Positions 2,881 to 46,706 of a stretch of DNA of 64,000 nt are shown here, in pieces. The notes beneath the pieces are model-generated. The model ran no database searches. It had not been told where the DNA came from and saw only the letters and a list, made by a program, of their open reading frames with translations. Location: assembly GCA_016786615.1 (NCBI GenBank), contig JAEUVX010000011.1, forward strand, positions 248,001 to 312,000, given 5' to 3'. Each line of letters begins with the position of its first letter. Positions within the stretch are counted from its first letter, which is position 1. Origin of the DNA: Flavipsychrobacter sp. (GTDB taxonomy: Bacteria; Bacteroidota; Bacteroidia; Chitinophagales; Chitinophagaceae). The position numbers were made by a program, and so were the translations under genes.

Positions 2881-5763
2881 CTATGCTTCTGCTTCCATGT
2901 AAGAAGAAACAGGTTCGCATGTACAAATCAGGTTGCGGTCGCCGTATGTATTATTCACACGTGCTATGCTCGGCCAGAATTTATTGTCCTTCACCCATTC
3001 CAATGGGTATGCTGCCTGCTGGCGGCTGTAAGGACGATTCCACTCATCTGCAGTTACCACAAACTGTGTATGCGGTGCATTTTTCAGTACGTTATCTTTC
3101 TTATCTGCTTTACCTTCTTCTATAGCGCGTATCTCTGCACGGATGCCCAGCAACGCGTCGCAAAAGCGGTCCAGTTCGGCTTTATCTTCACTCTCAGTAG
3201 GTTCTATCATGATAGTACCAGGGACTGGGAAGCTAAGCGTTGGTGCGTGGAAGCCATAGTCCATCAAACGTTTTGCAACGTCTTCTGCTTCTATCTCTGC
3301 TGTCTTTTTGAACGGACGCAGGTCTACGATGAATTCGTGTGCACATGTACCGCCTGTACCTGTATATAGTATATCGAAGTCTTTTTGCAGACGTGCACGC
3401 ATATAGTTCGCATTCAGTATCGCATACTCTGTTGCTTTGCGCACACCTGTAGAACCCAGCATTCTGATGTATGCATAAGATATCAGCAATATACTTGCAG
3501 AACCAAACTGAGCTGCAGAAACTGCATTCGCTGCCTTGCCATTTGTTTCCGTAACATGCGATGGCAAGTGCGGAGCCAGATGCGACTTCACACATATTGG
3601 GCCCATACCGGGGCCACCACCACCGTGTGGTATAGCAAATGTTTTGTGCAAATTCAGGTGGCAAACGTCTGCGCCAATCAGGCCCGGTGCTGTAAGACCT
3701 ACCTGTGCATTCATGTTTGCACCATCCATATATACCTGTCCACCGTGTTGGTGAACGATGTCTGTAATTTCTTTTATTGTCTCTTCGTACACACCGTACG
3801 TAGATGGATATGTAACCATGATACCAGCTAGGTTTGCTGCGTGCTGTGCAGCTTTTACCTTCAGGTCTTCTACATCTATGTACCCGTTTTCCAGCGCTTT
3901 TACCACTACTACTTTGTAGCCAACCATTACTGCTGATGCAGGGTTGGTACCGTGCGCAGATATCGGTATCAACATTACGTTGCGGTGTTTATCGCCGCGG
4001 CTATCATGGTAAGATTTTATAGTCAGCAACCCGGCATACTCGCCTTGCGCGCCGCTGTTTGGCTGCAGGCTGCACGCATCAAATGCTGTGATTTCGCACA
4101 GGTAGTCAGACAGTTCTTTTGCCATTTGCAAATAACCTGCTGCCTGGCCTTTTGGTACAAACGGGTGCATCTTGCTCCAGTGTGCCCAACTAAGCGGCAT
4201 CATTTCTGTAGCAGCGTTCAGCTTCATGGTGCAAGAACCCAGCGATATCATGCTTGTATTCAGGCTCAGGTCCTTGTTCTCCAGCATTTTGATATAGCGC
4301 ATCATTTGCGATTCGCTGTGATGCGTGTTGAATACCGGGTGTGTAAGGAATGAAGATGTACGCGTAAGAGATGTACCGATGTTTGTCAGTACTTCTTCGT
4401 GATTAATTTCAAAACTTACAGGCTCACCTGAATTATCGAATATGCTTATGATATTGAACAGGTCTGATGGTGTTGTTGTTTCATCAAGAGAAATACCAAC
4501 CAAAGTATTATCTGCAAAATAACGGAAGTTGATTTGAGCAGCTTCTGCTTTTGTTTTGATATCATTCGCGTCAGCTACTTTCACAACGATTGTATCAAAA
4601 TAAGATTCTGACACAATGCTGCAACCATGCGCTTTCAACTGATTAGCTAATGTATGTGTCAGCACGCTAACACGTTTAGCGATATTTATCAAGCCATCAG
4701 GGCCATGATACACTGCATACATAGCAGCCATATTAGCCAGCAATGCCTGTGCAGTACAGATGTTAGATGTTGCTTTCTCGCGTTTGATGTGCTGTTCACG
4801 TGTTTGCAGCGCCATACGCAGCGCGCGGTTGCCGTTAGCATCAATACTTACACCAATGATGCGGCCTGGTATAGCACGCTTGAAATCATCAGTACAAGAG
4901 AAGAATGCCGCATGAGGGCCACCATAACCCAATGGCACACCAAAACGTTGTGCACTACCCAGTGCTACATCAGCACCTAATTCTCCCGGAGGTGTAAGTA
5001 GTGTCAGTGCCAGCAAATCTGTTGCCATTGCTACATAAGCACCTGCTGCATGTACTTTTTCTATAAAGCTGCGATAGTCTTCAATACTACCTTTATCATT
5101 AGGATATTGAAGCAATGCACCGAAGTAAGTATTATCTATTGTTGCTATTTTGTAATCTCCAACCACTATCGTAGCACCCAGTGGTGTAGCGCGGGTTATT
5201 ACAACATCCAGCGTTTGCGGGAAGATGTTTTCATCAACAAAAAATTTAGGACGCTCCAGATTATCATGGTCTTTGTTCAATGTTGCAAGGAACATGTGCA
5301 TTGCTTCCGCAGCAGCAGTAGCTTCGTCCAGCAACGATGCATTTGCAATTGGTAAGCCTGTCAGGTCACTAACCATAGTCTGGTAGTTCAGCAGGCTCTC
5401 CAGGCGGCCCTGAGAAATTTCTGCCTGATACGGTGTATACTGTGTGTACCATCCCGGATTTTCAAAGATATTGCGCAGGATAACGCTTGGTGTAAGGGTA
5501 TCATAGTAACCCTGACCTATATAAGTTCTGTAAACCTTATTCTTTACTGATATTTCTTTTGAAATACGCAGGTATTCCGCTTCGCTGATACCTTCAGGTA
5601 TGCTCAACGCTTTGTTCATGCGGATAGCCGAGGGTACCGTTCGGCCAATCAGCTCTTCCATATCTGTTACACCAATAGTTGCCAGCATCTGCCTGGTATC
5701 ATGTTCATTAGGGCCTATATGGCGTCCTGTGAACTCCTGATTTTGAAGGGAAAACAAATTCAT
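2881..5763 (-). CDS. gcvP: Glycine dehydrogenase (aminomethyl-transferring), P protein
   Basis: A 960-residue full-length single-chain P protein of the glycine cleavage system. It decarboxylates glycine on PLP and passes the aminomethyl group to lipoyl-H protein. Both homologous halves are present. The N-terminal half begins with the FxxRHIGP signature. The C-terminal half has the PLP-lysine segment HLNLHKTFAIPHGGGGPG and the Gly-rich GSATGL-type loop region. The organism has the fused form rather than split gcvPA/gcvPB. It is transcribed alone: a strong promoter lies just upstream (5802-5831), an AAGGAG Shine-Dalgarno sits ahead of the ATG, and an intrinsic terminator follows. No T or H protein gene or glycine riboswitch is seen nearby. 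Confidence 0.97.
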   Translation of the reverse strand: MNLFSLQNQEFTGRHIGPNEHDTRQMLATIGVTDMEELIGRTVPSAIRMNKALSIPEGISEAEYLRISKEISVKNKVYRTYIGQGYYDTLTPSVILRNIFENPGWYTQYTPYQAEISQGRLESLLNYQTMVSDLTGLPIANASLLDEATAAAEAMHMFLATLNKDHDNLERPKFFVDENIFPQTLDVVITRATPLGATIVVGDYKIATIDNTYFGALLQYPNDKGSIEDYRSFIEKVHAAGAYVAMATDLLALTLLTPPGELGADVALGSAQRFGVPLGYGGPHAAFFSCTDDFKRAIPGRIIGVSIDANGNRALRMALQTREQHIKREKATSNICTAQALLANMAAMYAVYHGPDGLINIAKRVSVLTHTLANQLKAHGCSIVSESYFDTIVVKVADANDIKTKAEAAQINFRYFADNTLVGISLDETTTPSDLFNIISIFDNSGEPVSFEINHEEVLTNIGTSLTRTSSFLTHPVFNTHHSESQMMRYIKMLENKDLSLNTSMISLGSCTMKLNAATEMMPLSWAHWSKMHPFVPKGQAAGYLQMAKELSDYLCEITAFDACSLQPNSGAQGEYAGLLTIKSYHDSRGDKHRNVMLIPISAHGTNPASAVMVGYKVVVVKALENGYIDVEDLKVKAAQHAANLAGIMVTYPSTYGVYEETIKEITDIVHQHGGQVYMDGANMNAQVGLTAPGLIGADVCHLNLHKTFAIPHGGGGPGMGPICVKSHLAPHLPSHVTETNGKAANAVSAAQFGSASILLISYAYIRMLGSTGVRKATEYAILNANYMRARLQKDFDILYTGTGGTCAHEFIVDLRPFKKTAEIEAEDVAKRLMDYGFHAPTLSFPVPGTIMIEPTESEDKAELDRFCDALLGIRAEIRAIEEGKADKKDNVLKNAPHTQFVVTADEWNRPYSRQQAAYPLEWVKDNKFWPSIARVNNTYGDRNLICTCEPVSSYMEAEA

Positions 5764-24749: not shown

Positions 24750-25158
24750 GGTATAAAGTTAGGTACTTATAGTAAGGAAAACCACCAACTAATGTTTATA
24801 CATCAATAGGATGGGTTTATATATGTTGGAATGGGTTTTGCTGCAAGCTGAAAAGCTCTCCTGTTGTTTTAGGAGGAGTACCCGACAGGGGGAAGGTGGT
24901 AACTACGCTCCACGAGCTTTTTGCTGTGCACATGCCTGGGCTTCCTTTCTTTCTTTTGGCAGCAAGAAAAAAAGAAACAAAGAAAAGCTGCCAGAGACCA
25001 ATGACAGAAAGGTCTCTGGTGGCTGTCGATTGAGCTACATTGCTACTGTGCTGCCGGGCTGTAGGGTGCTATTCCTCTTATTTAAAAAAATGTAGTGCAT
25101 TGCTGACATTATCATTTTCATTATTTGTTGATAGTTTTTGATAGTATTTGCATAGTTT
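24750..25158. other. Non-coding stretch holding repeat copy A
   Basis: About 150 bases of unremarkable sequence are followed by the structured repeat (24913-25074). Then comes an AT-rich tail with short direct repeats of ATAGTTTTT/ATAGTATTT between 25125 and 25165. No gene is supported here. The 94-codon frame over the repeat is an artefact of its A/G-rich strand. Confidence 0.6.
24913..25074 (+). repeat. Two-hairpin dispersed repeat, copy A
   Basis: This segment aligns with 45802-45958 over its whole length. Conserved blocks are CGAG-TTTTTGCTG, CCTG-GCTTCCTTTC, TTTCTTTTG, GAAACAAAGAAA (copy B: GTAACAAAGAAA), TGCTACTGT-CTGCC and a final TGCTATT. Hairpin 1 here is imperfect (TTTCTTTT against AAAGAAA). 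Hairpin 2 pairs 24986-24999 with 25011-25024: nine perfect pairs, CCAGAGACC / GGTCTCTGG, extended by five more including two G-U wobbles. I do not know a named family for it. It is non-coding. Confidence 0.7.
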
Positions 25159-25599
25159 TTACAATTTTCTTTTCCAACCATATTCCAGTTTAGTATCTAA
25201 CACTATAGCTCTCAACACTTGAGATACTGTTGGTTGTTGCTGTAATGTTTCAGAATGGTTACGAATTGTTGCTTTCCGGTTACAATTTGTTGCTGTATCG
25301 CTGCAATTTGTTTCGTTTTGTTGCATTGCCGATTTAATGATACGTGCCAATAATACACGCTTCCAGTACACATCTGCCAATGCCATACCATAGTCTTGCT
25401 GCAATTGTTCTAACACTGCATCTTCTGTTATTGTGAATGCTGCCTGTATTTTATTGCGGATGTATGGAACGGAAAGCAACCGGCAGGCATTGTTATAAGC
25501 AGCGGTTGACGAAGATTGCGGGTAAGCTTTGAGATAGGCTTCTTTGCGATTACCATGTGCAATCATTTCCTGTATAAAGGTTTCGTGGCGAAAGTTCAT
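25159..25599 (-). CDS. Terminase-small-subunit-like protein, orphan
   Basis: 146 residues from ATG 25599; the frame extends upstream to 25650 without domain. The N-terminal 60 residues fit the phage terminase small subunit HTH region: RHETFIQEMIAHGNRKEAYLKAYPQ ... AAYNNACRLLSVPYIRNKI. A middle helix follows (VYWKRVLLARIIKSAMQQ), then a low-complexity Asn/Thr/Cys-rich stretch. No large terminase, portal or capsid gene is near, so it is a prophage remnant or a domesticated DNA-binding protein. Its 3' end faces repeat copy A, 84 bases away. Confidence 0.6.
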   Translation of the reverse strand: MNFRHETFIQEMIAHGNRKEAYLKAYPQSSSTAAYNNACRLLSVPYIRNKIQAAFTITEDAVLEQLQQDYGMALADVYWKRVLLARIIKSAMQQNETNCSDTATNCNRKATIRNHSETLQQQPTVSQVLRAIVLDTKLEYGWKRKL

Positions 25600-25747
25600 G
25601 GTGGTGACTTTTATTAATACAAAAATACAACTATTTATGATAAATAGCACTATTAATACATTCTACTAATGAAAGCAGCCAAAGAACCGGGTATAGGTGT
25701 GATTGTGAATTTGTGTAAGGAGGTAAATATTACCTGATACTGCTCAC

Positions 25748-45716: not shown

Positions 45717-45801
45717 ATTCCAATTAAAAAGCGGGTAAAAGTAATAAATGGCGGGGATTTTACTATGTTCTTTTTCGGTTAAGAGGTATGGATGGCTTGG
45801 C

Positions 45802-45958
45802 GCGAGTTTTTTGCTGCGCTCTTTGCCTGCGCTTCCTTTACTTTCTTTTGCGGAAAAGAAAGTAACAAAGAAAGCCGCCGGGAATTAAAGACTGCCTAAT
45901 TCCCGGTTGCCTCTCCGATATGCTTTTGTGCTACTGTACTGCCAAGCTCAGGAATGCT
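45802..45958 (+). repeat. Two-hairpin dispersed repeat, copy B
   Basis: The second copy of the element at 24913. Hairpin 1 is perfect here: ACTTTCTTTT (45840-45849), loop GCGG, AAAAGAAAGT (45854-45863). Hairpin 2 pairs CCGGGAATTA (45878-45887) with TAATTCCCGG (45897-45906) across a 9-base loop. That stem sequence differs from copy A's CCAGAGACC while remaining fully paired. The 3' block TGCTACTGTACTGCC ... TGCTAT runs to the stop codon of the HEPN-like gene. Same orientation as copy A. Confidence 0.7.
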
Positions 45959-46706
45959 ATTTATCATTTTTCAAATGCCACTTCTTATATACCTCATTTT
46001 GGAAAGTATCAATATCATTAATTGCTTGCGACATTGTATCTAATAGTTCAATACAAAAATCAAAATAAACTTTGTTGTGCGACACATCTATAATCTCAAT
46101 CTTTATATCGCTTGTGCTCATGAAAGAAATTGGTAAATATTGCAACCTATCTAGGTGTGCAAATCTATTTCTGAGCATCCAAACAGTATCGATTGATTTA
46201 ATAGTTTTAGACGTTTTGTCAAACGGTATATCAAATAGCTTTGCAGCATTTTGCATTTTTTTTGCCCATAACTCTCCTTCAGAAAATTTTGCACTAATCT
46301 GTTTAATATACTTCTTTCTTAAATCTTCTATAGAGTCAAAGTCAACTATATCAAATTTTCTGATTTCAGTATCTTTTATGTCCAGTGCTCTTTTAAATAG
46401 GTTTTTATCTTGTAATTTCCATTCAATTAAATCAATCAAAAAATATTCAGTTGCAGATGTAAAATTTAATATACAATTAGATATTGCATTTAATCTTGTT
46501 TCCTGAAGAAGATATTTTTTTTCATTCTTCGCTCTTTCAAGTATGCCTTCAATAGCCTTATAAAATGGTGCATTACTATTTTTGAATATTTCATCAAGTT
46601 CTGATGCAGTATCTCTAAGCTTTTCATCAGAATCCATACAATTTAAAAGCAATCCAAGCCTTGTAATGCTAAAGGATGATAAGAGTCTTGCGTACGCTGC
46701 GAACAT
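45957..46706 (-). CDS. HEPN-like protein with RNxxxH motif, AT-rich orphan
   Basis: 249 residues, almost all alpha-helical. Residues 179-184 read RNRFAH, the Rx4-6H (RNxxxH) active-site motif of HEPN ribonucleases found in toxin-antitoxin, abortive-infection and CRISPR-associated proteins. Upstream helices (SATEYFLIDLIEWKL) fit the HEPN fold, and the C-terminus is another long helix. Base composition is clearly lower in G+C than in the mutase and glnS neighbours, suggesting acquisition. No antitoxin gene is adjacent, so a defence function is inference. It could also be an inactive HEPN scaffold. Its stop codon lies in the end of repeat copy B. Confidence 0.6.
   Translation of the reverse strand: MFAAYARLLSSFSITRLGLLLNCMDSDEKLRDTASELDEIFKNSNAPFYKAIEGILERAKNEKKYLLQETRLNAISNCILNFTSATEYFLIDLIEWKLQDKNLFKRALDIKDTEIRKFDIVDFDSIEDLRKKYIKQISAKFSEGELWAKKMQNAAKLFDIPFDKTSKTIKSIDTVWMLRNRFAHLDRLQYLPISFMSTSDIKIEIIDVSHNKVYFDFCIELLDTMSQAINDIDTFQNEVYKKWHLKNDK

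Follow-up and report, generated by a model that had tools for sequence, protein, structure and literature searches.

An apparently undescribed dispersed repeat of Flavipsychrobacter with a pseudoknot and replaceable stems, most likely REP-like mobile structured DNA

Two segments of a 64,000-nucleotide stretch of Flavipsychrobacter DNA (the window) are members of a multicopy, dispersed, non-coding repeat family. The family is apparently undescribed and most likely represents REP-like mobile structured DNA; its pseudoknot is unusual and its stems are replaceable. Its three helices covary between copies and G-U wobble pairs are nearly absent, making this a clean case of strong covariation that points to DNA, not RNA, structure.

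Results

Two copies in the window

Copy A (24913-25074) and copy B (45802-45958) are both present and share one orientation, and direct inspection and alignment agree on this with the earlier note, which was made from the sequence alone. Common to the two cores (24946-25060 in A, 45838-45948 in B) are hairpin 1, an A-rich linker, hairpin 2 stems that are paired but different, and a 3' block. The features are as follows.

24913..24945, + strand: copy A, 5' block (from the alignment of copies), which varies between copies and is shorter or absent in the short form
24946..24957, + strand: copy A, S1 5' arm TTTCTTTCTTTT of hairpin 1
24958..24963, + strand: copy A, hairpin 1 loop GGCAGC, the 5' strand of pseudoknot helix S2
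24964..24977, + strand: copy A, S1 3' arm, degenerate here
24978..24986, + strand: copy A, A-rich linker L3 CAAAGAAAA
24987..24992, + strand: copy A, S2 3' strand GCTGCC, complement of the hairpin 1 loop
24991..25019, + strand: copy A, hairpin 2, with arms CCAGAGACC (24991-24999) and GGTCTCTGG (25011-25019) and loop AATGACAGAAA
25041..25060, + strand: copy A, conserved 3' block TGCTACTGTGCTGCCGGGCT
45794..45837, + strand: copy B, left junction and 5' block
45838..45865, + strand: copy B, hairpin 1, TTACTTTCTTTT / GCGG / AAAAGAAAGTAA
45866..45873, + strand: copy B, A-rich linker L3 CAAAGAAA
45875..45878, + strand: copy B, S2 3' strand CCGC, complement of the loop GCGG (45850-45853)
45878..45906, + strand: copy B, hairpin 2, with arms CCGGGAATT (45878-45886) and AATTCCCGG (45898-45906) and loop AAAGACTGCCT
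45930..45948, + strand: copy B, conserved 3' block GCTACTGTACTGCCAAGCT
45957..46706, - strand: gene adjoining copy B that matches HEPN (RiboL-PSP), PF18735, marginally, at 28.6 bits against a cut-off of 28.4

The first hairpin, which the earlier note had described from copy B, is intact there and degenerate in copy A (AAGAAAAAAAGAAA; relatives show AAAAGAAAGAAA). The block described as TGCTACTGT-CTGCC is the conserved 3' block of the element. Folding of the single sequences, which is weaker evidence than covariation, gave z = -3.07 for copy B and only -1.44 for copy A. Rfam yielded no match anywhere in the window at gathering thresholds, and nothing convincing below threshold around copy A (best E 0.44).

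A multicopy family

When used as queries in whole-genome BLAST, copies A and B miss each other. Copy A finds three other places in its own genome, one of them split in two pieces: copy C at C1:127 kb, copy D at C9:170 kb, and a partial 5' block at C3:102 kb. Copy B finds copies C and D together with fragments, and copy C as query recovers both A and B. Because each of the two finds C and D and C finds both, and given the covariance model and the covariation of further copies, the likeness between A and B is more than chance.

The covariance-model search that the earlier note had proposed did turn up further copies. Model R1 (113 positions, 21 pairs) gave 62 matches of at least 60 bits in the 15 genomes of the genus, spread over 11 of them, and the family is larger than first reported. 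The source genome, G000, holds four full copies by this model. At this cut-off the matches number 11 in G007, 10 each in G004 and G006, eight in G011, seven in G012, five in G009, four in G000, three in G008, two in G002, and one each in G010 and G014. There is no R1 match of at least 60 bits in G001, G003, G005, or G013; weaker hits in these four genomes, as well as weak matches to the same hairpin 1 on the opposite strand, were left out of the counts. An order-wide search at E 1e-6 found the element in 12 of 248 genomes and 8 of 125 genera, its own included, and every carrier comes from the source organism's own family. Hairpin 2, which was expected to stay paired in additional copies, does so in the full copies (89-97% of cells paired per helix); in truncated ones (C3:102 kb, L079, and L087) it is missing.

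Stems replaced with their pairing kept

The observation behind the earlier note, a stem with both arms replaced together, is borne out in three alignments against shuffled and slid controls. Alignment A2 (38 rows, covering S1 and hairpin 2) was made after dropping two of 40 core extractions, one an identical copy and the other an overlong second match of the same copy. In A2, 96.2% of cells are paired and the covariation score is 0.329, compared with a shuffled mean of 0.095 (0/500 shuffles) and at most 0.078 in slid controls. The two model-fitted alignments, in which identical rows were counted once in the pair counts (63 of 66 rows in A3, 24 of 27 in A4), give 98.5% paired cells and a score of 0.570 versus 0.128 shuffled (0/500) for the 63 distinct rows of A3, and 97.9% and 0.697 versus 0.183 (0/500) for the 24 distinct rows of A4. 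A3 includes three rows from outside the genus, and the rows of A4 all come from other genera of the family.

In each of the three alignments, all nine pairs of hairpin 2 have changed on both sides. Hairpin 2 stems in the genus include CCAGAGACC, CCATAGACC, CCGGGAATT, CAAAGCATT, CCAAAGGAC, CCACGCATT, ACAGCCATC, CCGACTTTA, CCGACAATC, and CGACGAATT, and the sequence of S1 is also variable (TTTCTTTCTTTT, TTACTTTCTTTT, GTTCTTTTTTT, GTTCTTTCTTTG, and others). The hairpin 2 loop keeps its central AC in most rows and invariantly in A2. Copies differ in their combination of hairpin 1 type, hairpin 2 type, and a linker insert of ~47 bp, and these many combinations indicate recombination between copies.

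Covariation alone does not prove structural selection, since template switching can also replace both arms jointly. According to passages of PMC8794818, template switching in DNA replication can alter several bases at once in a compensatory way and re-establish Watson-Crick pairs. Some of the covariation may be mutational, which counts against the explanation that we favor below.

A third helix and the linker

A helix that had been overlooked in the earlier note, S2, joins the loop of hairpin 1 to the segment just 5' of hairpin 2. Its two strands change together: GGCAGC/GCTGCC in copy A, GCGG/CCGC in copy B, and TACCC/GGGTA, TGCAC/GGTGC, and TTGTGC/GCACA among other copies. Over 35 distinct pairs (L064 excluded), S2 has a mean of 3.94 contiguous Watson-Crick base pairs, compared with 2.64 for shuffled partners (0/5000); it reaches at least 4 bp in 21 pairs and is 3 bp or shorter in 14. 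With the order S1a, S2a, S1b, linker, S2b, the arrangement is that of an H-type pseudoknot.

The linker resembles a mirror image of the S1 3' arm (CAAAGAAAA with AAAAGAAAG; CAAAAAAA where S1 is TTCTTTTTTT), a likeness of sequence that raises the idea of a linker-S1 triple helix. Because the linker and arm words are near-symmetric, Hoogsteen and Watson-Crick pairing of the linker are indistinguishable.

The ~47-bp insert sits at one fixed position in the linker, combined with several hairpin 2 types, in three genomes (L021, L059, L062, L063, L069, L070, L072, and L339). Its carriers are copy D of G000 and several copies in G004 and G007. It can be read as an 11-codon open reading frame in some copies, and the frame or the start differs in others. 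One copy (L081 2052-2186, minus strand) has its linker interrupted by a CCTGCCTGCCGGCAGGCAGG palindrome.

Wobble pairs

Selection on a + strand RNA is expected to leave G-U far commoner than A-C, and selection on the - strand to do the reverse. The S1 and hairpin 2 cells of A3 and A4, which are not independent because the copies are related, comprise 1757 Watson-Crick, 5 G-U, 11 A-C, and 19 other combinations (n = 1792). As a control, tRNA acceptor stems from fetched loci of mixed phyla (22 of 33 distinct tRNAs were usable) gave 140 Watson-Crick, 13 G-U, and 1 A-C among 154 cells. The first alignment, made with MAFFT, had five G-U cells, four of them in one pair adjoining a gap in four CCGACTTT rows. 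Among the multi-phylum matches listed (described below), the best hairpins downstream have 5 G-U, 8 A-C, and 19 other internal mismatches.

An RNA reading is not favored by these counts, since G-U is less frequent than A-C, unlike in tRNA acceptor stems; selection on an RNA, the leading reading of the earlier note, is weakened accordingly. Scarce G-U could also reflect strong stability selection on an RNA, which counts against a DNA reading. The census is a simple test that can be applied to other candidate structured RNAs.

Insertion sites and neighborhood

The element is absent from both sites in the relatives examined. In 11 of the 14 relatives, site A was examined over the 900 bp upstream of the pirin-like gene, and none has the element there; G002, G006, and G009 continue directly into the sequence of the next gene. 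Copy A is accompanied by ~100 bp of further sequence. A stand-alone homolog of Terminase_2 (phage small terminase), 25162-25650, adjoins copy A; G002, G006, and G009 have sequence that aligns to it in the equivalent position, next to the pirin-like gene.

At site B, the element is absent from 13 relatives examined (of 14). The site is empty in G002, with a left flank that is identical at 78 of 78 positions up to 45793 and diverges after it. The tRNA-synthetase gene of G002 comes directly after the B12-binding gene; in G000, copy B and the HEPN-like gene lie between them. With ~100 bp extra at site A and an extra gene at site B, neither site offers a clean single-element insertion in which a target-site duplication could be judged. 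G010 and G014 each have one copy in the same neighborhood with different, unshared adjoining segments, and provide no clean empty site. Several G011 and G012 copies have flanks that make them look orthologous, and are thus not recent arrivals.

The orientation of genes around the element is not fixed. No constant neighbor arrangement was seen for 23 copies in the genus. Among the multi-phylum matches listed, 78 copies have enough flank; 20 of them overlap an open reading frame of at least 80 aa, many of these short and doubtful, and the other 58, outside open reading frames, occur in all four neighbor arrangements (18/16/15/9). With neighbors in all orientations, a cassette- or attC-like layout, in which the element would always lie downstream of an open reading frame, was rejected, as was a cis-regulatory leader.

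Most copies are single. Inverted pairs occur once in G006, twice in G563, and once in G616; in G563, two different types, X and Y, stand tail to tail at two places and in both orders. An IS608-like route would favor a replication-strand bias; by eye, none is obvious among 10 strong copies on the complete G004 chromosome relative to dnaA at 0.743 Mb, which may not mark the origin.

CGTC-REP-like motifs occur at 0.32 per copy within the first 100 bp on each side, compared with 0-0.06 per 100 bp beyond (63 copies). Motifs of the form CGTC[AT]TTGCGA cluster by copies of the element, for example at L058, L066-L069, L077, and L085, which suggests that the two together form composite repeat islands.

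Candidate enzymes

A dedicated REP-type transposase, which the earlier note had proposed to look for, was sought in the 15 genus genomes and at 20 Y1_Tnp loci and was not found. Y1_Tnp genes are present in 10 of the 15 genomes; the carriers G002, G006, and G012, three of the 11 genomes with strong copies, gave no Y1_Tnp match. Eighteen of the 20 Y1_Tnp loci (two overlapping) have no element within 1.5 kb. An element lies near just two, and one of these is a RAYT that sits within a copy and has palindromes of its own. This RAYT (L064 1357-2070; G004:C1 ~633.8-634.6 kb) has 185 aa and the motifs NHIH and YIHLNP. It was rejected as an autonomous form, as it has its own TTCAAGCG palindromes and merely interrupts hairpin 1 of a copy. 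A RAYT as mobilizer in cis was rejected for now, with Y1_Tnp missing in three carriers and hardly any loci linked to the element.

By eye, no transposase-like open reading frame was recognizable between neighboring copies at seven loci. IS91-type Y2_Tnp was found in 0 of 15 genomes and also in none of the control genomes, so that this result is uninformative.

Discussion

Comparison with known systems

A search by topic and by sequence word in open-license PubMed Central papers found no description of this repeat, and no Rfam family matches either, in keeping with the earlier note, which knew of no described family that fits. Of the three guesses made there (a structured RNA, a REP-like mobile element, or an integration site), the REP-like element is the best. 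REPs or REPINs and our element are all short, intergenic, multicopy, hairpin-forming, and at times arranged as inverted pairs. The 62 strong copies in 11 of 15 genomes and the 58 of 78 copies outside open reading frames among the multi-phylum matches listed conform to this description. Compensatory changes across REPIN hairpins are reported in passages of PMC3116915. Our element differs in its size, about 115-180 bp compared with the 21-65 nt given for REPs in a section of PMC6006769, in its pseudoknot, and in having no constant GTAG/GTGG foot and no associated RAYT that we could find. The S1 foot is varied (TTA/TAA, CTA/TAG, CTT/AAG, TTT/AAA, and others) rather than GT[AG]G 5' of the hairpin, and GTAG stands at the 3' foot in 37 of 116 among the matches listed. 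No RAYT flanked by the repeat in the same genome was found, and the hairpins seen beside RAYTs in the genus are other palindromes, just one RAYT being embedded in our element.

Like our element, the CGTC-tagged REPs are intergenic palindromes for which no dedicated transposase is known, as far as the relevant part of PMC3733652 goes. They adjoin many of our copies but are a distinct sequence family, and the ends of our element lack CGTC. Atypical structures that flank TnpA-REP subclass 2.6 (RAYT group 5) are described in a section of PMC6006769 as occurring in Bacteroidetes, lacking GTAG, and having copies elsewhere in the genome, traits that our element shares. The hairpins seen beside RAYTs in this genus are other palindromes, and the single RAYT embedded in a copy brings its own; our element thus appears different from the subclass 2.6 structures, although it may still prove to be the same. 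In behavior, REPs or REPINs, the CGTC-tagged REPs, and these structures come closest to our element. The same source, in part, describes the ends of IS200/IS605 as sub-terminal hairpins that act as single-stranded DNA, with extra base interactions that include triples (PMC6006769). In our element, by comparison, no constant guide or cleavage tetranucleotide was identified, and three carriers have no Y1_Tnp match.

MITEs such as NEMIS, ERIC, and RUP are short, non-autonomous intergenic repeats, as is our element; the hairpins of our element are internal and asymmetric, and no terminal inverted repeats were seen by eye in the flank listings. Integron attC sites have RYYYAAC/GTTRRRY core sites and lie in cassette arrays. 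Our element would resemble them as a single-stranded hairpin with a free stem, but its neighbors show no constant cassette-like arrangement. Of the features expected of a structured RNA, covarying helices are present, and a match in Rfam and a tolerance of G-U over A-C are both missing.

Explanations

We give about even odds to the reading in which A and B belong to a dispersed repeat of REP/REPIN type, mobile but non-autonomous, whose DNA folds in single-stranded form. A dispersed mobile DNA repeat is supported by the varied orientations of the copies, the relatives that lack the element at both sites, the recombinant copies, the inverted pairs, and the adjoining CGTC-REP-like motifs, whereas movement itself, the single-stranded acting form, and the enzyme are inferred. 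Against this reading weigh that no transposase could be tied to the element, that no clean single insertion was seen, that some copies of G011 and G012 look orthologous, that G004 shows no obvious strand bias by eye, and that S2 is shorter than 3 bp in 24 of 121 pairs among the multi-phylum matches listed. In the mechanism that we propose, the loop of hairpin 1 would pair ~9 nt past the hairpin, which would close a pseudoknot of the H type, and the A-rich linker would run alongside S1. Hairpin 2 would contribute nearly always perfect pairing, a free stem sequence, and a loop with a central A-C, and the conserved 3' block TRCTACTGTG-CTGCC would stay single-stranded. An enzyme that processes single-stranded DNA, acting in trans, could then recognize the shape, the loop, and the 3' block and not the sequence of the stems, which would drift or be replaced while their pairing stays exact, aided by template switching and by recombination between copies. 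If the element does move as folded single-stranded DNA, a processing enzyme with shape-based recognition is implied, and the family would be a natural system in which to measure hairpin rebuilding by template switching.

A structured RNA, in which the + strand is transcribed and folds as pseudoknot plus hairpin 2, either as a small RNA or as an element dispersed by retroposition, appears unlikely. Pseudoknots of the H type with A-rich linkers are typical of RNA, the hairpin 2 loop and the 3' block could be its conserved single-stranded sequence, and S2 gains pairs in some rows when G-U is allowed, but the near absence of G-U from S1 and hairpin 2, where it is no commoner than A-C, departs from tRNA, Rfam has no match, and place and orientation relative to genes are not fixed. 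We judge it distinctly improbable that the family is a passive repeat, that is, an old dispersed sequence whose palindromes were perfected by template switching at replication forks without structural selection. The multi-base compensatory changes ascribed to template switching in the pertinent passages of PMC8794818 would account for near-zero wobble and whole-stem replacement, but not for the covariation of S2, which is no simple palindrome, nor for the conservation of the hairpin 2 loop, the 3' block, and the linker. Very unlikely, in our estimate, is the remaining account, that the copies are solo or paired ends of a larger unidentified transposon, or an internally deleted miniature of one with an X end facing a Y end. 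The tail-to-tail X and Y types at two places in G563, the inverted pairs in G006 and G616, and the position of copy B at the edge of an accessory-gene insertion fit such ends; on the other hand, most copies are single, and a full-length form with a transposase between its ends was not found at seven loci.

The module beyond the order

A pattern with S1 and the linker fixed and with the loop and the downstream sequence left free, CTTTCTTTTN{3,14}AAAAGAAAGNARCAAAGAAAA, matches at least 120 stretches of genome contigs and 9 viral contigs. The matches listed include Bacteroidota, Clostridia, Selenomonadaceae, Phycisphaerales, Lentisphaeria, and Nitrospiraceae. S2 has at least 5 contiguous Watson-Crick base pairs in 44 of 121 distinct pairs among the matches listed, compared with a shuffled mean of 6.0 and maximum of 14 (1000 shuffles), and fewer than 3 bp in 24 of the 121; copies of Clostridia ES-bin-9 are among those without loop pairing. 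The tests of the S1 foot and of downstream hairpins, which require more sequence on both sides, used 116 distinct pairs. Among the matches listed, the free S1 base at position -1 is paired in 113 of 116, compared with 58 after shuffling (maximum 72), and that at position -3 in 110 of 116, compared with 59 (maximum 74). A hairpin of at least 9 bp lies within 140 nt downstream in 51 of 116 among the matches listed and in 5 of 116 after base shuffling.

Viral contigs searched for S1 alone gave 89 stretches with 66 distinct hairpins. In 11 of these 66, CAAAGAAA follows the S1 hairpin within 6 nt on one strand, and the reversed word does so in 1; two of the 11 were already among the matches to the S1-linker pattern. 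The linker is thus conserved, as the query did not contain it and yet it stands next to S1 hairpins. Exact matches to the full pattern are rare (3 of 395 Bacteroidota genomes, the source included; control 0). Copy C has one 38-bp match in the phage collection and none in the plasmid collection, and a form from a viral contig matches plasmids of Chitinibacter and Comamonas and nothing in the phage collection. Rfam gave no match at gathering threshold for the motif in 18 other loci.

The multi-phylum matches may all belong to one homologous family. A wider proposal, tentative and somewhat unlikely in our view, is that of an undescribed class of mobile single-stranded-DNA element in several phyla, with a pseudoknotted and possibly triple-helical module of S1, loop helix S2, and an A-rich, mirror-like linker and with wholesale-replaced stems, whose shape a non-RAYT enzyme would recognize. 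Such repeats, present in several phyla, are easily mistaken for junk or for spurious short open reading frames.

A second, related family has the same layout, with loops GTCC, GCCC, or CGCC paired with GGAC, GGGC, or GGCG and a hairpin 2 loop of GCTCCGC (L021 ~3420-3509, L022 1303-1351, L076 1753-1857, L093-L095, L136, L138, and L139). It shares some genomes with the first family, and recombinants between the two occur. A third form has variable perfect hairpins whose loops are kept, such as TCCA/TCCT and GCATCACG (L118, L121, L124, L144, L207, and L221; Selenomonadales/Quinella and similar). In a Chitinophagaceae MAG, an Acido-Lenti-1 RNA (RF01687) above gathering score (L151 2421-2466) lies ~1.7 kb from a hairpin 1 module.
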